Shown one piece after another: positions 21,997 through 33,605 of a stretch of 64,000 nucleotides of DNA. Position 1 is the stretch's first letter; each line of letters opens with the position of its first letter. Under the pieces are notes generated by a model. It was not told the origin of the DNA. It saw only the letters and a program-made list of their open reading frames with translations, and searched no databases. The stretch is from Chthoniobacteraceae bacterium (GTDB taxonomy: Bacteria; Verrucomicrobiota; Verrucomicrobiia; Chthoniobacterales; Chthoniobacteraceae). Location: the NCBI GenBank assembly GCA_947476045.1, contig CANJNZ010000011.1, positions 1 through 64,000 of the forward strand. Reading direction: 5' to 3'. Both the position numbers and the translations under genes were made by a program.

Positions 21997-23877
21997 ATGA
22001 GTGAAGCCCCTGAAAAACTATCCACTGGCGAACCTCTCGGTCTTGAGGAGCTGCTGAAATTTCTCCCTGCGTTGGGCGAGATATCACAGGGTTTACTAAA
22101 AAACTACGCATTGGGCGCAGCCGTTTTGCGACGCTTCAGTGAGGGCGATATTGTATGCGAGGAAGGCGAATTTGGTTCCACGGCATTCTATATCGTCGAG
22201 GGTGAGGTGGACATCTACATCGCCAATCCACTTGCTAGAGTGCAGAGCGAGCGACGCGGCGGATTTTTTGGTTTTTTGAAAAAGGCTATTGGTCTGGGCA
22301 GCAAGTCCACTGGCAGCGAAGCGGATGGATTCATCACCATCGATGCCGATGTGGATCTTCCAAAGACGAAGCCGCTCGCCGTGCTCGGTGTTGGCGAGCT
22401 TTTCGGCGAAATGACCTGCCGCACTTTCCAGCCGCGCAGTGCGACCGTGCGTGCAAAGGGCGATTGTGTGATGGTGGAAATGCTCCGGGTCATCCTCGAT
22501 ATGCTCGTGGGCACGCGCGATGTGGACGCCGAGACAAAAGCTTCCACAAAAGTGAAGGCGGCGACGTTCAAGGGCACGTCGTTCAAAAAGCAGCTCGACG
22601 AAAAATACCGCCAGCGTTCGCTCATCAACCACCTGAACAGCGTCCCGCTTTTCAGCGGGCTGGGAGATGAATTTCTCGGCTACCTCAAAGACCACGCGGA
22701 ACTCATCTCCTGTGGAAAAGGTGAAATCATCTGCAAGCAGGGGGACACAGCGGATGCTTTTTATCTCATTCGCAGCGGTCTCGTGAAAGTCGCCCAAGCG
22801 ATGCCCGGCGGCGAGATGGTCCGCACCTATTTGAAACGCGGTGAATACTTCGGCGAAATCGGACTGCTTCACGATTCGCCGCGCAACGCGACTTGCTCTG
22901 CGCTCGACGCTGTCTCACTTGTGAAAATTGCGGGCGCTGATTTTCGCGTGATGCTGGAAAAGTTTCCTGATGTTCGCGAGTCACTGCTGAAAGTCGCAGC
23001 CGCACGCATCGCCGCAAACGAACAGCGAAAAATTCCGGTTGGGATCCAACTCGATGATTTCCTCAATCAAGGTCTCTACGAAGCGCAAAATCTCCTCCTC
23101 ATTGACCTCGATCACTGCACACGGTGCGACGCCTGTGTGAATGCCTGCGCGGAGGCCCACGAAGGCGTTACGCGACTCATCCGCGATGGTCTTCGCTACG
23201 ATCATTTCCTTGTTCCCACAGCCTGCCGCTCCTGCCGCGATCCGCTGTGCATGACGCAGTGTCCCGTCGGCTCAATCCGTCGTAAAGAGTCGCTCGAAAT
23301 CGTCATCGAAGACTGGTGCATCGGCTGCGGAAAATGCGCCGAGCTTTGCCCCTACGGGAACATCAACATGCACCCTTTCGAGGAGTGGCAGCTCAAGCCA
23401 GCGGAGATTCCCAAAGCTCCCGCACCGGCAGCGAAGCCTGCTGCAGCCCCTGCGAAACCCGCTGCCGCGCCCGTCGTGAAGGCGCCCGCTGCCGCCGCAC
23501 CTGCTCAGGAAAAAGCAGCGGCAGCCGCCACGCCTGCGCCGCCTGTTGCGGTCGCGCCGCCAGCACCCGCCAAAGTTGAGACCGCAAAACCGGAGCTTGC
23601 CGCGCCAGCACCCGCTGCTGCGAAGCCAGCCACATCGCCCGCCGCTGCAAAGCCCGCCGTCCCACCTGCGAAAAAAGAAGAACCGCCGAAGAAAATGGTG
23701 AAGAAAAAAGTCACTGTTACCAAGGCGACGACATGCGATCTATGCAGCGACCTCAGCGTCCCGAGCTGCGTGTATGCCTGCCCGCACGACGCCGCCAAGC
23801 GCGTGGATCCCGCCGTGTTCTTCGCCGCTGGCAGCAAAGGCTGGAGCTTCCGCAAAAAGACCCGCACCACTCACTGA
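21997..23877 (+). CDS. Tandem cNMP-binding-domain protein fused to a four-cluster ferredoxin
   Basis: A 626-aa fusion. Two cyclic-nucleotide-binding domains lie at about residues 25-180 and 205-345. Both keep the phosphate-binding cassette, with Glu and Arg present (GELFGEMTCRTFQPRSAT and GEYFGEIGLLHDSPRNAT). The C-terminal half is a NrfC/HybA/DmsB-like iron-sulfur protein with four Cys quartets: CTRCDACVNAC (near 374), CRSCRDPLCMTQC (near 409), CIGCGKCAELC (near 440) and CDLCSDLSVPSCVYAC (near 579). An Ala/Pro-rich linker of about 100 residues separates the third and fourth quartets. No signal peptide is visible, so the site is probably cytoplasmic. The gene is one base from the cytochrome b-like gene. 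I infer an electron-transfer subunit whose activity or docking responds to cNMP. Confidence 0.88.
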   Translation: MSEAPEKLSTGEPLGLEELLKFLPALGEISQGLLKNYALGAAVLRRFSEGDIVCEEGEFGSTAFYIVEGEVDIYIANPLARVQSERRGGFFGFLKKAIGLGSKSTGSEADGFITIDADVDLPKTKPLAVLGVGELFGEMTCRTFQPRSATVRAKGDCVMVEMLRVILDMLVGTRDVDAETKASTKVKAATFKGTSFKKQLDEKYRQRSLINHLNSVPLFSGLGDEFLGYLKDHAELISCGKGEIICKQGDTADAFYLIRSGLVKVAQAMPGGEMVRTYLKRGEYFGEIGLLHDSPRNATCSALDAVSLVKIAGADFRVMLEKFPDVRESLLKVAAARIAANEQRKIPVGIQLDDFLNQGLYEAQNLLLIDLDHCTRCDACVNACAEAHEGVTRLIRDGLRYDHFLVPTACRSCRDPLCMTQCPVGSIRRKESLEIVIEDWCIGCGKCAELCPYGNINMHPFEEWQLKPAEIPKAPAPAAKPAAAPAKPAAAPVVKAPAAAAPAQEKAAAAATPAPPVAVAPPAPAKVETAKPELAAPAPAAAKPATSPAAAKPAVPPAKKEEPPKKMVKKKVTVTKATTCDLCSDLSVPSCVYACPHDAAKRVDPAVFFAAGSKGWSFRKKTRTTH

Positions 23878-23878
23878 C

Positions 23879-24838
23879 ATGGTTTTAAACCGCACGCACA
23901 TCCCGTGGTTCATTTTCACACTGCTCGCCACACTGGCGACATTCGCAGGCTATGCCGCGCGCTTTCATCCTGACTGGCTTCCGTTTTCGATCCCGCTCCC
24001 CGAGATACTTCGAGATGCCACCACGAAGAGGAACACAGTCGGCGGCACGCGAATCGGCCTGCTCTATGGCACGCTCGGTTTTGCGATCTTCCTTTTCGCT
24101 GCCGCGCTCGGTGCGCGGAAAAAGAAACCGCTCTGGCGCGTGGGACGCGTTGAGTTTTGGCTCAAAGGACACATCTGGCTCACCATCCTCACCATTCCGC
24201 TCGTCGGATTTCATTGCGGGTGGACGTGGGGAAGTCCTCACACCACCGTCGTGTTGCTCATGTATATCATCGTCATGGCATCGGGCTTTTTCGGTCTTGC
24301 GATGCAGCAATTCATGCCCGGCCTCATGAAGGAGCGTCTGCCGCGCGAAGTTGTCTTCGAGCAAATCCCGAACATCCGTAAGCGCATCCTCGAAGCGGCC
24401 GACGAACTGCAAAAAGATTGCACGCCGCCTGATCCTACAAATGCAGGCAAGGCCGTGGCTGGAAAAGTGAGCCTCATCGGCATGACTGAAATCCCGCCCG
24501 AGGATTTGCAGAGCGCCGAGCAGATTCGCACCTTCCTAAATACCGATGCGCTCACATATCTCCGGCTCAAGCGCGGCGGCGGTCACAAATTTGGAAGCCA
24601 GCGTCTAAGCGAAGAGGCATTTCGCATTTTAAAACTCAACGTGACACCGAAATGGCGGCCGCGCGTGGAGGAACTTCAAGGCTGGTGCGATGAGCGCCGC
24701 CGGATGGATGTCCAGACACGCCTTCAACACTGGCTCCACGGCTGGCTGCTCATCCACGTGCCCGTCTCAATGCTCCTCATCGTCGTCACGCTCTGGCACG
24801 CCATCGTGGCAGTGCGTCTCTTCATCGTGAATCCCTAA
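23879..24838 (+). CDS. Cytochrome b-like integral membrane protein
   Basis: The start at 23879 (MVLNRTHIPWFIF) lies one base after the previous stop; the frame is open further upstream but there overlaps the Fe-S gene. The 319-aa protein has about five hydrophobic helices: WFIFTLLATLATFAGYAARF, GLLYGTLGFAIFLFAAALGA, GHIWLTILTIPLVGFHCGW, TVVLLMYIIVMASGFFGLAM and LLIHVPVSMLLIVVTLWHAIVAV. Histidines in GHIWL, GFHCGW, LLIHVP and TLWHAI are well placed to ligate two b-type hemes. A soluble domain of about 140 residues lies between helices 4 and 5. Probably the quinone-facing subunit linking the Fe-S protein and the decaheme cytochrome. Confidence 0.82.
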   Translation: MVLNRTHIPWFIFTLLATLATFAGYAARFHPDWLPFSIPLPEILRDATTKRNTVGGTRIGLLYGTLGFAIFLFAAALGARKKKPLWRVGRVEFWLKGHIWLTILTIPLVGFHCGWTWGSPHTTVVLLMYIIVMASGFFGLAMQQFMPGLMKERLPREVVFEQIPNIRKRILEAADELQKDCTPPDPTNAGKAVAGKVSLIGMTEIPPEDLQSAEQIRTFLNTDALTYLRLKRGGGHKFGSQRLSEEAFRILKLNVTPKWRPRVEELQGWCDERRRMDVQTRLQHWLHGWLLIHVPVSMLLIVVTLWHAIVAVRLFIVNP

Positions 24839-24843
24839 GAGCC

Positions 24844-26511
24844 ATGCCCGAGAACACGCAAAAGCAAATCGCGGCCAAGTATAAGGACGACCTCACTTAC
24901 TATCGTCGCACCCATTACATGCGGCGCTGGCGCTTTTGGCTGAGCGTGCTGGCCGTTGTGGGCGGACTCGTTTGGGCGCTTGGCTTCCAGTATTTCGGCG
25001 GCAAGCCAGAGTTTTTCAACACCGGCCCCATCTCGCAAAATCACGCACTCTTCGCAAACGACTGCGCCGTCTGTCACGACGGAGCCAGCACCGACATGCT
25101 CTCGATACTCCCAATCGCTGAGACGAAAGCCGCGATGCACGGAGGCAAGACGTCCGTGCTGGAAATTTTTAAGAGCAAGGGAAGCGAGGTTTACAAAGGC
25201 GCAAAGGAAAATCTTTCAGATACAAAGAAACTCGCCGCTGCCGCACACGCAGCACTTGGCTCGCTGAATCTCGACAACATCGATCGCGCCTGCATCAAGT
25301 GCCACGAAGGCATGGCGCTTCACCAGCCCGGGACAAAAGCGGTGATGTTCCGCGAGGGTCTCAAGGAACTGAGCATCGTCGCCGCTGGCGAGTGCAGCAC
25401 CTGCCACCTAGAACATGTCGGCACCGCGCGTATGAAACTACCGGGCGGGGAGAGTTGCGTGAGTTGCCACGGCGATGAAAAGAAGCTCGCTGATTCACTG
25501 AAACGCGCACCTTTCGATGGGAAACATGCCGCCGTTCACAGTCAGAATCTCCACATCGGAGACAGCGTGCAATGGCTGCCTGCCGCGACAGTCGGCGCAA
25601 AGCCGCAGGTCGTCCGCGCATTTGCAGACGGCCATCCCGCTTTTCTCTTCGAGGCTGCTGGCGCAAAGGACAACGCGCAGATCAAATTCAACCACGCACG
25701 CCATTTTGCTGACGACATCACCGCGCTCAATAAAGGCAAACTTGAGTGCCGCACCTGCCACACGCCGGATGCAGACGGCGTGGGCATGGGCCGAATCAGC
25801 TACGATCAGCACTGCCAGAGATGCCACTCACTCGGTGCAGATACCGATCTCCCCGGCTTCAACATCCCGCACCATGATCCGCAGAAAGTGCGCGATTTCC
25901 TGAGCAGCCTCCGCACGCAGTGGATTGATTACGCGAAGACACGTTTCCAAATCACCGATGCAGCCACGCTCAAAGCGTTCATTGATCAGCGCGAGCAGAA
26001 ATTTACGCAGCACTGGCCGTCATCGCTGGAGGAAGTCCAGAAGCGGGTATTTTTCACGGGCGATCCGCCAATTGAAAAAGCACGCAACGGTCAGTTTCTT
26101 CCCGCGTGCGCCAAGTGCCACACGGTCACTGATGCAGCGCCCGGCTCCACGGTGCCTAAGGTGGAACGCACGAACATCCCCGACCAGTGGCTCACGCGCG
26201 GCCCGTTTAAACATTCCGCCCATCTCCACATGATTTGCACTGACTGCCACGCAGGTGCCGAGAAGAGCAAGGACACAGCCGACGTGCTCCTGCCCTCGCA
26301 AAAGCTCTGCGCCGAGTGCCACCGAGAACGTGATTACACCAAAGTGGAAATCAATCCGACCAAACGGATCGCGCCGACCTTTGGGGAGTTCAGTTCAGAA
26401 GCCGCAAAAAAACAACGCAAAGAAGGTGGAGTCTTCGATTCCTGCCTCGGCTGCCACAAATATCACGTCCCCGCTGCGGAGATCGAAATCGCCAAATCAC
26501 TGGCGAAGTAA
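24844..26511 (+). CDS. Membrane-anchored decaheme c-type cytochrome
   Basis: The 555-aa protein has one N-terminal membrane anchor (RFWLSVLAVVGGLVWALGF, about residues 30-48) and ten CxxCH heme sites: CAVCH, CIKCH, CSTCH, CVSCH, CRTCH, CQRCH, CAKCH, CTDCH, CAECH and CLGCH. The first Cys is residue 74, the last site near residue 538. Several extra His could serve as distal ligands. The heme domain is presumably periplasmic. It starts 5 bases after the cytochrome b-like gene and ends 5 bases before a convergent gene. It likely passes electrons between the membrane subunit and a periplasmic partner. Confidence 0.93.
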   Translation: MPENTQKQIAAKYKDDLTYYRRTHYMRRWRFWLSVLAVVGGLVWALGFQYFGGKPEFFNTGPISQNHALFANDCAVCHDGASTDMLSILPIAETKAAMHGGKTSVLEIFKSKGSEVYKGAKENLSDTKKLAAAAHAALGSLNLDNIDRACIKCHEGMALHQPGTKAVMFREGLKELSIVAAGECSTCHLEHVGTARMKLPGGESCVSCHGDEKKLADSLKRAPFDGKHAAVHSQNLHIGDSVQWLPAATVGAKPQVVRAFADGHPAFLFEAAGAKDNAQIKFNHARHFADDITALNKGKLECRTCHTPDADGVGMGRISYDQHCQRCHSLGADTDLPGFNIPHHDPQKVRDFLSSLRTQWIDYAKTRFQITDAATLKAFIDQREQKFTQHWPSSLEEVQKRVFFTGDPPIEKARNGQFLPACAKCHTVTDAAPGSTVPKVERTNIPDQWLTRGPFKHSAHLHMICTDCHAGAEKSKDTADVLLPSQKLCAECHRERDYTKVEINPTKRIAPTFGEFSSEAAKKQRKEGGVFDSCLGCHKYHVPAAEIEIAKSLAK

Positions 26512-27732: not shown

Positions 27733-29583
27733 TCACGCGAGCAGTGATGCCTCCTGATTGGCCTTGCGTAGTTTGGAGCAGAGACTGAGGGCGAGGTTTT
27801 CGAGCAGACGGATTTTGATTTTCGGGTAGCTGATTCCAAGTGCTATCAGCTTTGCCATGCTGATGAGGTCGCAGGCGGTGTGGATGTCGGCGACGATGTT
27901 CGTGTAGTGCGGCGCACGGTCGAGGACTGCCATTTCGCCGAAGGCCATGCCGGCGGTGAAAACAGCCAACCGCTTGCTGCGTCCATTTTCCAAAGGGTAG
28001 TGGACGCTGACCCGGCCCCGGGCGAGGAGATAGATTTCCCGTGCGGCATCACCAGCGTTGCAGATGGTCTCGCCGGCCTTCCATTCGCGGCGCTCAAAGA
28101 ATTTCCGAAGGATGACGAGTTCGTCGGAACTGAATCCATTGAGAAGTTCGTAGTTGTCTGCACCGATGCTCATTTCCGGGAGTGGCGGCAGGACTCGCTC
28201 CAGCAGATGATCTTCGCACCATTGGAGTGCGGTGTCGTTATCCTCAAATACGCGGAAAAGCTCATCGCAGCGATTACCGAGCTTGGTTTTCAGCACGCGC
28301 CGGAGATGTGGAATGCTGTTGACGGCGCAAAACAGAACGTTTCGACCGGCACTGTGAAACTGGAGCAGAATGTCGTGAAAGAGCCTGCAGGCGGTTTCGT
28401 TCATCGAGTGAACGTAGTGGAAGTCGAGGATGATACTTTCGACTTCCGCTGGCACGGCGGTGAGTTCACGGATGATCGGTTCCGCAGTCGCGAAGACGAG
28501 ATTGCCCTGCAACTGATACTGAACCACGGAATTTCCGTGCTTGCCGATGGCCACCCGTTCACGCGCAGCACGGACCCGGCTGGAGCCGTATTCCGCTGCG
28601 GTGAAGCGGTGGCGGATCATCGAGTTGCCAACTCCGGCGCGATTGAAGAGATGGAGATCCCAGTCGCGCGAAAGCTCACTGCACGCACGGATTCCACGGA
28701 CGCTGTTGCCGTGTTTGTCGAGCCGTGGGGAAAAAACGCCGATGCCGAGTTGTCCCGGGAGCACGGCTGCGATACCGCCCGCGACGCCGCTTTTCGCAGG
28801 CATCCCGACTTCGTAAAGCCACTGGCCGGCGTAATCATACATGCCGCAGGTGCCCATGATGCCGAGGACGCTCTCGACGTATTCGCCACGGATGGCCTGC
28901 TGGCCGGTGATTGGATTGAGGCCTCGGTTGGCGAGCGTGGCGGCCATCGTGGCAAGGTCGAGGCAATGGCCGAGGATGGCGCATTGCTGAAAATAGGTCT
29001 CGGCGACAGGCATCGGGTCACCTGTGAGGATGTCGAAGTTGCGAAGCATATAGCTGATCGCGCGGTTGCGATGCCCTGTTGCACTTTCGGAACGATACAC
29101 GGCTTCATCCACAGTCATCGTGCGACCGGAATATTTACCAAACATATCAATGATCCGCTGGAGGCGAATGAGCGGTGTCTTGCCTTCGACGAGGCCGGTG
29201 GTGGCGATGGCCCCGGCATTGATCATTGGGTTGCGCGGGCACCCGGTGTCGGGATCGAGGCTGATGGAGTTGAAGGCATCGCCCGTTGGCTCAACTCCGA
29301 CTTTTCGCAGCACCGACTCGCGGCCCTGGTCCTCCAGCGCGAGGCCATATACGAATGGCTTCGAGATCGACTGTATGGTGAATGTCTGCCGCGTATCGCC
29401 AGCCTCGTAGATGCCGCCGTTCGCGGTTACGACGCAAATTCCCAACCAGTCGGGATTGGCCTTTGCCAGTTCGGGTATGTAGGTGGCGACATCCCCTTCG
29501 CTGATTCCTGAAAGCTCCCGATGCAGCGCCTGCAAACGCGCGTGGATTGGCGATTCAAATGAAGTAGTTTTCTCCTCGTTCAT
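27733..29583 (-). CDS. glsA: Glutaminase fused to STAS and cNMP-binding-like domains
   Basis: The enzyme part hydrolyses glutamine to glutamate and ammonia. The 616-aa protein has a serine-dependent glutaminase domain (about 1-310: FTIQSISKPF with the SxxK Ser/Lys, NPMINAGAIAT, SATGHRNRAI, SGVAGGI), a STAS domain (about 340-455: IILDFHYVHSMNETA) and a cNBD-like domain (about 465-610). In the last, FGEMAVLDRAPHYTN keeps the Glu, but the Arg normally after Pro is His. This suggests it no longer binds cNMP in the usual way. Glutaminase-STAS-cNBD fusions are known; the role of the tail is not clear. A 166-base gap with nothing obvious separates it from the DUF1552 gene. Confidence 0.9.
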   Translation of the reverse strand: MNEEKTTSFESPIHARLQALHRELSGISEGDVATYIPELAKANPDWLGICVVTANGGIYEAGDTRQTFTIQSISKPFVYGLALEDQGRESVLRKVGVEPTGDAFNSISLDPDTGCPRNPMINAGAIATTGLVEGKTPLIRLQRIIDMFGKYSGRTMTVDEAVYRSESATGHRNRAISYMLRNFDILTGDPMPVAETYFQQCAILGHCLDLATMAATLANRGLNPITGQQAIRGEYVESVLGIMGTCGMYDYAGQWLYEVGMPAKSGVAGGIAAVLPGQLGIGVFSPRLDKHGNSVRGIRACSELSRDWDLHLFNRAGVGNSMIRHRFTAAEYGSSRVRAARERVAIGKHGNSVVQYQLQGNLVFATAEPIIRELTAVPAEVESIILDFHYVHSMNETACRLFHDILLQFHSAGRNVLFCAVNSIPHLRRVLKTKLGNRCDELFRVFEDNDTALQWCEDHLLERVLPPLPEMSIGADNYELLNGFSSDELVILRKFFERREWKAGETICNAGDAAREIYLLARGRVSVHYPLENGRSKRLAVFTAGMAFGEMAVLDRAPHYTNIVADIHTACDLISMAKLIALGISYPKIKIRLLENLALSLCSKLRKANQEASLLA

Positions 29584-29749: not shown

Positions 29750-31090
29750 TCAGCCTTTTAAAACCGCGAGCGGGCCTGTGCTGTCGCCTACGGGCGTGCG
29801 GACGTCTATGCGTTCGAGCATGGAGACCCAGAGGTTGGTGACGGGTGTTTCGCCGGGCAGTAGGACGTGGCGTCCGGTCTTGATGGTGCCGCCGGCGCTT
29901 CCGGCGAGAAGCACGGGGAGGTCGTCGTGGTTGTGGCGGTTGCCGTCGGAGTTGCCGCTGCCATAGACGATCATGCTGTGGTCGAGGAGCGTGCCGTTGC
30001 CTTCTTTGATGGATTTCAACTTCCCGAGCAGGTAGGCGAACTGCGTGGTGTGAAAGGAATTGATCTGCCGAATCTTTGCGATCTTTTTGGCGTCGTTGCC
30101 GTGGTGTGAAAGTTCGTGGTGGCCTTCATTGATGCCAATCCACGGGTAGGCTTTGTTGCTGCCTTCGTTGGCCATGACGAAGGTGCAGACGCGTGTGGCG
30201 TCCATTTGAAATGCGAGGACCATGAGGTCGCACATGATGCGGATGTGTTCTTCGTAGTTACCGGGTTTTCCCTGCGGGATGGGGAAGTTTGCTGGCGGCT
30301 TGATGGGCGCAAGCGCGGCGTTACGGGCGATGCGCTGCTCGATGTCCCGGATGCTGGAAAAATACTCGTCCATCTTCTGCTGGTCGGCGCGTCCGAGGCG
30401 GGCGTTGAAGCTCTTTGCATCGTCGCTGATGTAATCCAGCACGCTCTTGCGCGCAGCAGCGCGGCGTGCGCGTTCGACGCCATCTTGATTTCCAAAAAGG
30501 CGCTCAAAAACGAGCTTGGGATTGGTCTCCTTTGGAATCGGCTGTGTCGCGGAGCGCCAGGATACGGTGCTGGAGTAAACGCACGAGTAGCCGCTGTCGC
30601 ATCCGCCCGCCATGTTTCCGTCCTCACAACCAATTTCCAGCGAGTCCAGATGCGTCTGGCCCGAGATTCGCGCAGCAGCGAGTTGATCCACCGAGGTCCC
30701 GCAGTGGATGTCCGCGCCGTCTGTCTTACGCGGTTGTGCGCCGGTGAGAAAAGCGGACATCGCTCGTGCGTGGTCGCCGCCGCCGTCGCCGTGTGGCCGC
30801 GCTTTATCGGCGGTAAGACCACTGATCACGAGCAGGTCTTTTTGATGTGCTGCGAGCGGCTGTAAAATTTCGGGCAGCGCGAACTTTTCACCCGTCTCGG
30901 CAGGCGTCCAACTTTTCATGTCTTTGCCATTGGGCACATAGACGAAAGCCATGCGGTTCGGCGCGGTCCGGCCCGGAGCAACTCCGGCTCCCCACGCGCT
31001 GAGGCTGCCCATTCCTTCGAGCCACGGAAGGGCGATGGTGGCACCGAGTCCGCGGAGGACGGTGCGGCGGGAGATGGGACGGTTCATCAT
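29750..31090 (-). CDS. DUF1552 protein with Tat signal
   Basis: The 446-aa protein opens with a twin-arginine signal (MNRPISRRTVLRGLGATIALPWLE) and matches DUF1552, a family resembling DUF1501/sulfatase-type hydrolase folds. Visible segments are MAFVYVPNGKDMKSWTP, GLTADKARPHGDGGGDHARAMSAFLTG and, near the end, DHSMIVYGSGNSDGNRHNHDDLPVLLAGSAGG. Two Met codons are adjacent; either may be the start. It begins 3 bases after the DUF1592 gene, so the pair is co-expressed. The biochemical activity is unknown to me. Confidence 0.88.
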   Translation of the reverse strand: MMNRPISRRTVLRGLGATIALPWLEGMGSLSAWGAGVAPGRTAPNRMAFVYVPNGKDMKSWTPAETGEKFALPEILQPLAAHQKDLLVISGLTADKARPHGDGGGDHARAMSAFLTGAQPRKTDGADIHCGTSVDQLAAARISGQTHLDSLEIGCEDGNMAGGCDSGYSCVYSSTVSWRSATQPIPKETNPKLVFERLFGNQDGVERARRAAARKSVLDYISDDAKSFNARLGRADQQKMDEYFSSIRDIEQRIARNAALAPIKPPANFPIPQGKPGNYEEHIRIMCDLMVLAFQMDATRVCTFVMANEGSNKAYPWIGINEGHHELSHHGNDAKKIAKIRQINSFHTTQFAYLLGKLKSIKEGNGTLLDHSMIVYGSGNSDGNRHNHDDLPVLLAGSAGGTIKTGRHVLLPGETPVTNLWVSMLERIDVRTPVGDSTGPLAVLKG

Positions 31091-31093
31091 GAT

Positions 31094-33460
31094 TTAGTTG
31101 TCGTTTTGATTTTTACCGCGACGGAGGCGGAACGGATCGCTCTTCGCAATGGCGCTGACGAGTGCTGAGAACTTATAGCCGCCTTTCGCGACCTCGCCGC
31201 ATATTTTTTCGATGGCGCGATCATCGTAGTAATCGAGCCCGCGGCCGATGGCGTAGATGATCATTTTCTCGGTGAGGCAGCGTGTGAATTGATCCTTTTC
31301 GTCGCGGAGCAGCTTCTTCAAATCATCGAAGCTCTTGAGTTCACCGCCGTTGTTCGGGAGTTTGCCGCCGACTTCTACCGGCTCACCTTCCTCGTTCTTG
31401 TCGCGCCACTGGCCGATGCCGTTGAAGTTTTCCAGCGCGAATCCCATCGTGTCCATCTTCGCGTGGCAGTTTGCACAGTTGGGATCGGCGCGGTGTTGTT
31501 CGAGTCGCTGGCGGAAAGTCCCGCTGAGTTCCTTGCGGCTGTTGTCGTCGAGACTCGGCACGAAAGGCGGCGGTGGCGGCGGCGGGTCGCCGAGGATTTG
31601 TTCGAGAATCCATTTACCGCGTTTGACTGGCGAGGTGCGCGTGGGATTCGACGTGACGGTGAGCACGCTCGCCTGTGTGAGCAGTCCCCCGCGCTGCGTC
31701 CCTGCAAGCGAGACACGTTTGAAATTTTCACCGTCATATCCGCCTGGTGGCCAGATGTTGTAAATTTCAGCGAGACGACGATTCAAGTAGGTGAAATCCG
31801 CATCGAGCAAATCGAGGATGCTGCGGTCTTCGCGGATGATTTCACCGAAGAACAGGCTCGTCTCTTGCAGCATGGAATCCCGTAGCGTCGGTTTCCATTT
31901 GTGAAATGTTTTTGCGTCTGCCTGATGCCCGGAGAGACGGCGCAGTTGCAGCCATTGCATCGCGAAATTATCCACCAACTCGGTGGCGCGCGGGTCCTTC
32001 AACATGCGGCGGATTTGTGCGTCGAGATTGGCAGTGAGCTGATTGGTGAGCGCATAGCGGAGCAATTCGTCATCCGGGCAACTGCTCCACAAAAAATAGC
32101 TCAGCCTGGTGGCGAGTTGAAATTCGTTGATCGGGTGCGGCTCGGGATTGAGCGGTTGATCGTCAATTTCCATGCGGAAAAGAAACTTCGGCGACGAGAG
32201 CACAGCGATGAGCGCCTGACGCACACCAGCCTCCCACGTTTCCCCACGCTTCATGGCACCATCCACGAGTCGCGCAACGCGTTCGGTTTCATCAGGCGTG
32301 ACAGGGCGGTGCCACGCTCGCGGCATGAAGTAGGAAAGCATGATGCGCGTTTGCTGCGCGGGCGTGGAGCCGGGTTGTGCCTGCGTCCAGCGCTTGAGAA
32401 ATGGCGAACGCGAATCATCGGGGCCGACCACTTCGAGCCATTTCACTAAAACCTTCGATGGCGGTCCGGCCGTGAAATCGCGCACCAGCGCAAGCCCGAT
32501 GCGTTCGACGCCCTGAATGCCGCTTAATTTTGCCTCCACCGTTTGTGCCTTCCCTTCCTCGCGTGCTTTCACCTCGATGACTTGCAGAATGCGGCACTTC
32601 GCCACCTGTGGAACTTTGTCCGCTTCGAGCTGGGACAAGCGAGCAGGCGGTTCGGGATTCGCGATGTTGGGGCCGGCGGCAATCAGTGCGACGCGCACAG
32701 TTTTTCCAACAGCAGCCTCGGCAAAAATATTCGCACGCACCGTGTAAGTGCCGCCCGGCTCCGCTTTGAACGGTGTATTCAGCGGCCCGGTGCCGATGTG
32801 ATCCTTGCCCGGTATCAATTCGCGCCACTCGCCGCGCATCGGCACATGCTCCGTTGCCGGTTCACAGTATTTGGACGCCATGTGCTTCGTGATCGGCTTA
32901 GGCGGGGTCACGGGGATGACTCTCTCAGCCACCGACTGCGCAGCATCGAGGTAGCGCTCCATCAGCAGCGGCGAAATCGAAAGCACATCGCCAATATTAT
33001 CGAAGCCGTAGCCCACGCCGTCCGCAGGGAAATCATTCGCGGGCTGCACGTCCACACCGAGCAAGTCGCGCAGTGTGTTGTTGTATTCGTTTTTGTTCAG
33101 GCGGCGGATCGTCACACGTCCGGGGTCAGGCTTGGCATTCTGATCAAAGTTTTTGAACACCGCATTTGCGGAGGCAATGAAAGCCTCGCGCTCCTTTGCG
33201 GTCGGCTGTGGCTTATCATCCGGCGGCATATCGCCATGCTTCACTGCATCCAGGATGCGCTTCCAAGTCTTGCGTTGTTTGAGCACCGAGAGGTCATCGC
33301 GAAATCCATGCAGAGTGAGATCGCCCTTCTGCTTCTTCTCTCCGTGACAGTCCGTGCAATATTTACCGAGAAACGCAGTGCCCGATTTTGAAAACGGCTC
33401 ATCAGCCACGGAGAAAACCGTGAGCGCAAAGAAATATAGTGCGATACGAAACGCAGACAT
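31094..33460 (-). CDS. DUF1587/1592/1588/1585 cytochrome-type protein
   Basis: Planctomycete/Verrucomicrobia-type exported protein of about 788 aa. The start at 33460 gives a plausible signal peptide (MSAFRIALYFFALTVFSVADE); the frame is open to 33493, with an alternative ATG at 33484. An N-terminal heme-c site (CTDCHGEKKQKGDLTLHG) is followed by the family order DUF1587 (RRLNKNEYNNTLRDLLG), a carbohydrate-binding-like middle, DUF1595/1592 (YFMPRAWHRPVTPDE, FLWSSCPDDELLR), DUF1588 (LTVTSNPTRTSPVKRGKWILE) with a second heme site CANCH, and DUF1585. It pairs with the DUF1552 gene. A periplasmic redox role is inferred. Confidence 0.87.
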   Translation of the reverse strand: MSAFRIALYFFALTVFSVADEPFSKSGTAFLGKYCTDCHGEKKQKGDLTLHGFRDDLSVLKQRKTWKRILDAVKHGDMPPDDKPQPTAKEREAFIASANAVFKNFDQNAKPDPGRVTIRRLNKNEYNNTLRDLLGVDVQPANDFPADGVGYGFDNIGDVLSISPLLMERYLDAAQSVAERVIPVTPPKPITKHMASKYCEPATEHVPMRGEWRELIPGKDHIGTGPLNTPFKAEPGGTYTVRANIFAEAAVGKTVRVALIAAGPNIANPEPPARLSQLEADKVPQVAKCRILQVIEVKAREEGKAQTVEAKLSGIQGVERIGLALVRDFTAGPPSKVLVKWLEVVGPDDSRSPFLKRWTQAQPGSTPAQQTRIMLSYFMPRAWHRPVTPDETERVARLVDGAMKRGETWEAGVRQALIAVLSSPKFLFRMEIDDQPLNPEPHPINEFQLATRLSYFLWSSCPDDELLRYALTNQLTANLDAQIRRMLKDPRATELVDNFAMQWLQLRRLSGHQADAKTFHKWKPTLRDSMLQETSLFFGEIIREDRSILDLLDADFTYLNRRLAEIYNIWPPGGYDGENFKRVSLAGTQRGGLLTQASVLTVTSNPTRTSPVKRGKWILEQILGDPPPPPPPFVPSLDDNSRKELSGTFRQRLEQHRADPNCANCHAKMDTMGFALENFNGIGQWRDKNEEGEPVEVGGKLPNNGGELKSFDDLKKLLRDEKDQFTRCLTEKMIIYAIGRGLDYYDDRAIEKICGEVAKGGYKFSALVSAIAKSDPFRLRRGKNQNDN

Positions 33461-33605
33461 TCGGAAGTAAATAGAGCGTATCATGCATACCATCCCGTGC
33501 CACGAACCTTGTGGACTTTCAAATGGGGTATTGTTTTCGGCCCACAGGTGATTCTCCTATCGCAGCCGTCTGATTGTGGCCGATGTGCAGAAACTAATGA
33601 GCAGT

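Follow-up and report, generated by a model that had tools for sequence, protein, structure and literature searches.

A conserved trio of genes for an iron-sulfur protein with cyclic-nucleotide-binding domains, a putative bis-heme membrane protein and a decaheme cytochrome in Verrucomicrobiota: a probable inner-membrane segment of an NAD(P)H-fed electron conduit

The window analysed here is a stretch of 64,000 nucleotides (positions 1 to 64,000 of contig CANJNZ010000011.1, GenBank assembly GCA_947476045.1) from a Chthoniobacteraceae bacterium of the phylum Verrucomicrobiota, and the subject of this report is a trio of genes on its forward strand, here called A, B and C. Gene A encodes an iron-sulfur (Fe-S) protein with two cyclic-nucleotide-binding domains (cNBDs), gene B a putative bis-heme b-type membrane protein, and gene C a decaheme c-type cytochrome (Table 1). 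B begins 1 base after the end of A and C begins 5 bases after the end of B, and the three products together hold 16 predicted redox centres. The coordinates, both gaps, the domains, the Cys and His motifs and the intact Glu and Arg of both cNBDs, as described in an initial annotation made from the sequence alone, all hold.

Table 1. Positions of the genes of the trio and of their main features in the window.
Feature	Position	Strand	Description
A	21997..23877	+	626 aa (amino acids), cytoplasmic; two cNBDs, then four [4Fe-4S] cluster motifs
A, cNBD 1	22114..22506	+	about residues 40-170; phosphate cassette FGEM..PRSATV, residues 136-151
A, cNBD 2	22633..23031	+	about residues 213-345; cassette FGEIGLL..PRNATC, residues 285-300
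A, three [4Fe-4S] motifs	23104..23382	+	residues 374-451; DmsB/NrfC-like
A, Ala/Pro-rich linker	23392..23712	+	residues 466-572; short or missing in many relatives
A, fourth [4Fe-4S] motif	23734..23781	+	Cys 580, 583, 591, 595
B	23879..24838	+	ATG at 23879; 319 aa, five predicted helices, putative bis-heme b; helices 4 and 5 joined by a large loop, probably cytoplasmic
B helix 3, putative heme ligands His98 to His112	24170..24214	+	spacing 14; invariant 14/14 and 23/23
B helix 5, putative heme ligands His293 to His307	24755..24799	+	spacing 14; invariant 14/14 and 23/23
C	24844..26511	+	555 aa, membrane-anchored decaheme c-type cytochrome
C, N-terminal membrane anchor	24934..24990	+	residues 31-49; 8 Lys/Arg in the preceding 30 residues
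C, ten CxxCH heme-binding motifs	25063..26457	+	residues 74-538

A Pfam search placed PF00027 above cut-off in A (E-value 3.1e-35, two domains), and the 16 Cys of the protein fall into the motifs C374xxCxxCxxxC, C410xxCx4CxxxC, C441xxCxxCxxxC and C580xxCx7CxxxC, with the Ala/Pro-rich linker ahead of the fourth. This is the order of the DmsB/NrfC-type four-cluster ferredoxins, and sub-cut-off NCBIfam matches were obtained to the FDH3 beta subunit, DmsB, DsrO and NrfC. A differs from these ferredoxins in having two cNBDs fused in front and in lacking an adjacent molybdopterin catalytic subunit or NrfD-type subunit, neither of which was present among the neighbours of the trio. C contains exactly ten CxxCH motifs and a single N-terminal helix, and scores above cut-off for the c3/c7-type profiles PF14537, PF14522 and PF09699. 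Its AlphaFold2 model, from a 12-row alignment, is too uncertain to use (predicted local distance difference test, pLDDT, 46.4).

B has the pattern and anatomy of a transmembrane bis-heme b protein that would carry electrons across the membrane. In an alignment of 23 B proteins H7, H98, H112, H284, H287, H293 and H307 are all invariant, and when distant relatives (down to about 14% identity) are added only H98, H112, H293 and H307 stay so, in 14 of 14. The loop that joins helices 2 and 3 is rich in Lys and Arg (RKKK), and that of 140 residues joining helices 4 and 5 is charged, so that both are probably cytoplasmic; H98 and H293 would then lie toward the cytoplasm and H112 and H307 toward the periplasm. 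Locus handles (L) are used below for related contigs; in L005, L006, L008, L012 and L041 the cytoplasmic loop of B carries a long Pro/Ala-rich insert, whose place corresponds to about residues 190-210 in the B of the window.

B matched no family in Pfam or NCBIfam, and searches of PDB sequences with B, with a profile of B and with C returned nothing meaningful. The AlphaFold2 model of B (12-row alignment; pLDDT 68.7, predicted template modelling score 0.52) is uncertain, and its Foldseek/VIA-align matches were nonspecific, consisting of generic helical bundles and receptors. At the level of pattern, B shares with two-heme cytochrome b561-like proteins the four axial-type His on membrane helices, and with the cytochrome b561, Ni-hydrogenase b and DUF4405 two-heme proteins a putative few-helix bis-heme b architecture. 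It differs from the latter in that profile matches are confined to relatives of B and weak (PF01292 and PF14358; best E-value 1.4e-4, for a Sphingobium B, below the Pfam cut-off), with none for the window's B.

The trio is conserved across families, classes and a second phylum. Scanning of bacterial genomes yielded 12 loci with A, 11 of them labelled Verrucomicrobiota; B follows A in all 12, and C is then adjacent to B in all except L007, where the contig ends within B. B was found in 24 of 57 related genomes, with C following B in the loci read and ten CxxCH motifs present wherever C is complete. The synteny expected in the initial annotation is thus kept in the related contigs that span A-B-C. 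Two loci, the distant L070 (no single intact ten-heme C frame) and L069 (broken A and B frames), are probably decayed or mis-sequenced copies and were excluded as evidence on heme number. One A-B-C locus, L009, is labelled Blastochloris (Pseudomonadota), and its B groups with the verrucomicrobial ones; it is probably a mis-binned contig. Twelve large Sphingobium plasmids carry the system as an A fusion with B beside it. A scan of viral contigs with A found no relative, and the B of the NqrF-linked type described below had no plasmid match, whereas its A did find the Sphingobium plasmids.

The same core occurs in four cytoplasmic contexts: with no adjacent NAD(P)H module (the window type), with NuoEF/NuoG-like proteins, with an NqrF-like protein, and as a Pyr_redox fusion. 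Several relatives from the window's own family carry a NuoEF fusion, with NADH/FMN and Fe-S domains, after B-C; next comes a modified A, in which a NuoG-like 2Fe-2S/Fe-S N-terminus is fused ahead of the cNBDs and Fer4 region. In other classes an NqrF-like gene (FAD, NAD and 2Fe-2S domains) adjoins A-B-C, and the A of the 12 Sphingobium plasmids is a fusion with a pyridine-nucleotide oxidoreductase (Pyr_redox flavoprotein), B being adjacent. In the Sphingobium record read in detail, C comes after the A fusion and B and bears an FHA domain as well as ten CxxCH motifs. Seven genomes without A beside B-C were searched, and each has a relative of A at another locus; in six of the seven it lies beside a NuoEF fusion and is 61-67% identical to the clustered ones. 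In a tree of B, module type is clustered yet has changed several times; counted on well-supported branches, the A-B-C label needs at least four changes. The core has thus stayed constant while its input side changed. The occurrence of different NAD(P)H-oxidising modules on this core is the best evidence for the role of the cytoplasmic arm. As for a dedicated donor in the window species, the NuoEF of its complex I was weighed and rejected, since it lies within the nuo operon.

Toward the outer membrane, many relatives have a gene for a C554-type triheme cytochrome beside B-C or A-B-C. Six loci (L030, L033, L068 and L071-L073) and Sphingobium also have an HbpS-like protein, a probable outer-membrane barrel and a large decaheme cytochrome of about 1,300 residues with LVIVD repeats; in some loci members of this set are partly invisible where contigs or fetched stretches end. 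Best alignments between the Verrucomicrobiota and Sphingobium sets give identities of about 31-39% for the C554-type and HbpS-like proteins, about 41% for the barrel and about 44% for the large decaheme. In the window genome, homologues of the C554-type cytochrome, the large decaheme (62%) and the barrel (65% over its C-terminal part) lie at three other places. We infer from sequence a path that may run from the cytoplasm to the outer membrane, the barrel being putative. On plasmid pMSHV of Sphingobium herbicidovorans (L090 and L117), the C554-type, HbpS-like, barrel and decaheme (about 1,330 aa) genes adjoin the trio, and the locus also lies near a two-partner secretion transporter, metallophosphoesterases and an EAL-domain gene.

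The cNBDs offer a possible means of control. Their Glu and Arg are invariant in 13 close relatives, and both cassettes are intact in the window's A. Over all aligned module types the Gly, Glu and Arg of cNBD 1 are invariant, whereas the Gly-Glu and Arg of cNBD 2, intact in the window's A, are lost in the NqrF-linked type, so at most one site would be competent throughout. Three class III cyclase-domain matches in the window genome make a ligand for the cNBDs plausible, and binding of a cyclic nucleotide by A and its gating are likewise plausible. Other cNBD proteins are encoded in this genome, among them a neighbouring glutaminase fused to a STAS domain and a cyclic-nucleotide-binding domain (27733-29583, minus strand), two genes downstream of the trio. 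FHA domains were also seen in L067 (8642-10714, 10834-12591), in the NqrF-like protein and, on inspection by eye, N-terminally in A, and at the N-terminus of the Sphingobium C in L090 (9111-10910), hinting at phospho-dependent control.

A-B-C probably forms the inner-membrane part of a conduit that carries electrons from NAD(P)H into the cell envelope. The NAD(P)H pool of the cytoplasm would supply electrons by way of a flavoprotein, which in relatives is encoded beside A or fused to it, to the four [4Fe-4S] clusters of A. From there they would cross the membrane by two b hemes in B, held in the presumed pairs H98/H293 on the cytoplasmic side and H112/H307 on the periplasmic side, and reach C, whose ten hemes would lie on the periplasmic side of its inner-membrane anchor. 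The next carriers are most likely the C554-type cytochrome and then the outer-membrane barrel with the decaheme of about 1,300 residues, leading to a putative final acceptor, and a cyclic nucleotide, sensed by the cNBDs, probably controls docking or electron flow.

Several points weigh against this reading. No NAD(P)H module lies next to the trio in the window lineage, the NuoEF of the window genome sits in an ordinary complex I operon, and the NqrF-like matches of that genome are weak only. The outer components are unlinked to the trio in the window genome, and the barrel is judged only by a signal-like N-terminus and an aromatic C-terminus, with no Pfam match. The AlphaFold models are too weak for a fold or for heme sites, and the direction of flow cannot be told from sequence. 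More broadly, a widespread and so far undescribed class of quinone-independent conduits from NAD(P)H to the envelope, with a constant bis-heme b/decaheme c core, interchangeable NAD(P)H dehydrogenase modules and an Fe-S arm switched by cyclic nucleotides, feeding an outer-membrane decaheme, is a tentative proposal that we hold to be rather doubtful.

The initial annotation had proposed a quinol-linked electron-transfer complex, and of this the transmembrane module of Fe-S protein, b-type protein and decaheme cytochrome stands and is syntenic. Were the link to quinol also correct, B would oxidise or reduce menaquinol while A and C relayed electrons, much as Cbc or NrfCD-type systems do. Quinone binding is common among bis-heme b proteins, the Fe-S domain of A resembles those of NrfC, DmsB and DsrO, whose partners are quinone-reactive, and the missing NAD(P)H module of the window lineage would fit. 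With quinol as the donor, however, the three kinds of NAD(P)H-oxidising module that relatives link or fuse to A would be superfluous, and no subunit of the NrfD or NarI type was matched in Pfam or NCBIfam, so that this part of the proposal is not supported and a quinol-linked complex appears unlikely.

The conduit might also run inwards, taking electrons from reduced minerals, humics or another external donor through C and B to A, where NAD(P)+ or ferredoxin would be reduced. The architecture is symmetric, and examples of porin-cytochrome systems working in either direction are known. The potentials of multiheme c cytochromes are usually above that of NAD(P)H, which would make such flow uphill without coupling, and the clusters that were read showed no ion-pumping subunit; we consider an inward conduit quite improbable. 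That the trio is a redox sensor, its cNBDs (with FHA in some relatives) reading a signal while the redox centres report the redox state of the envelope, is suggested by the fact that cNBD and FHA are signalling domains. The number of predicted redox centres, the dedicated NAD(P)H modules and the large outer cytochrome set fit many-electron transport instead, no output domain was seen, and a sensor is very unlikely.

The outward neighbours of the trio in the window are a TSP3-like-repeat gene, ClpB, an APH-type kinase and the glutaminase. Further downstream (29750-33493, minus strand), a DUF1552 gene stands next to a gene of the planctomycete-type cytochrome/DUF1592 family, a type of pair known from the phylum.

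Periplasmic and extracellular electron transfer is mostly understood through the quinol-linked inner-membrane cytochromes of a few model bacteria. If the reading of A-B-C as an NAD(P)H-fed core with exchangeable modules is true, it would represent a different route by which the cytoplasmic electron pool is emptied into the envelope, and the cNBDs would offer a possible direct link between electron export and second-messenger control. The presence of the system on plasmids of culturable Sphingobium makes it testable. As the initial annotation had supposed, no account of a complex with this composition turned up in the open-access papers searched, subscription papers being outside the search.

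Among known systems, Tmc, Hmc and DsrMKJOP of sulfate reducers have Fe-S subunits with CCG domains and NarI-like b subunits. Like the trio, they place a cytoplasmic Fe-S protein, a b-type membrane subunit and a periplasmic multiheme c cytochrome across the inner membrane. They differ in that A combines cNBDs with a DmsB-type domain, B belongs to no Pfam or NCBIfam family, and relatives of the trio carry NAD(P)H modules; neither a CCG-domain Fe-S subunit nor a NarI-like b subunit was among the Pfam and NCBIfam hits of the trio. The extHIJKLMNOPQS genes of Geobacter unite a porin-like protein, several multiheme c cytochromes, an inner-membrane b-type cytochrome and an Fe-S protein in one cluster; its ExtO is of the Rieske type and its ExtP a cytochrome b of the bc type, and no cNBD or NAD(P)H module is described there (PMC5877670). 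A short stretch is common to Geobacter ExtM and the large Sphingobium decaheme, whereas the trio has no counterpart of the Rieske ExtO or the bc-type ExtP, A being a cNBD/4Fe-4S protein and B having no NCBIfam match. The core would thus work like the transmembrane Fe-S/cytochrome b/multiheme c complexes Tmc, DsrMKJOP and Ext, yet it falls outside all three because it has no CCG, Rieske, NarI or bc-type subunit.

Closer in phylogeny are the porin-multiheme clusters of freshwater Verrucomicrobia, which were proposed for extracellular electron transfer and in which the inner-membrane step is given generically as electron transfer in the inner membrane, 'ET in IM' (He et al., 2017; PMC5615132). 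Likened by description only, they resemble the present system, with its putative barrel, in combining a verrucomicrobial porin and multiheme c cytochromes, and differ in that their periplasmic cytochrome has eight hemes (PMC5615132). The trio is a candidate for the missing inner-membrane step of such verrucomicrobial porin-cytochrome systems.

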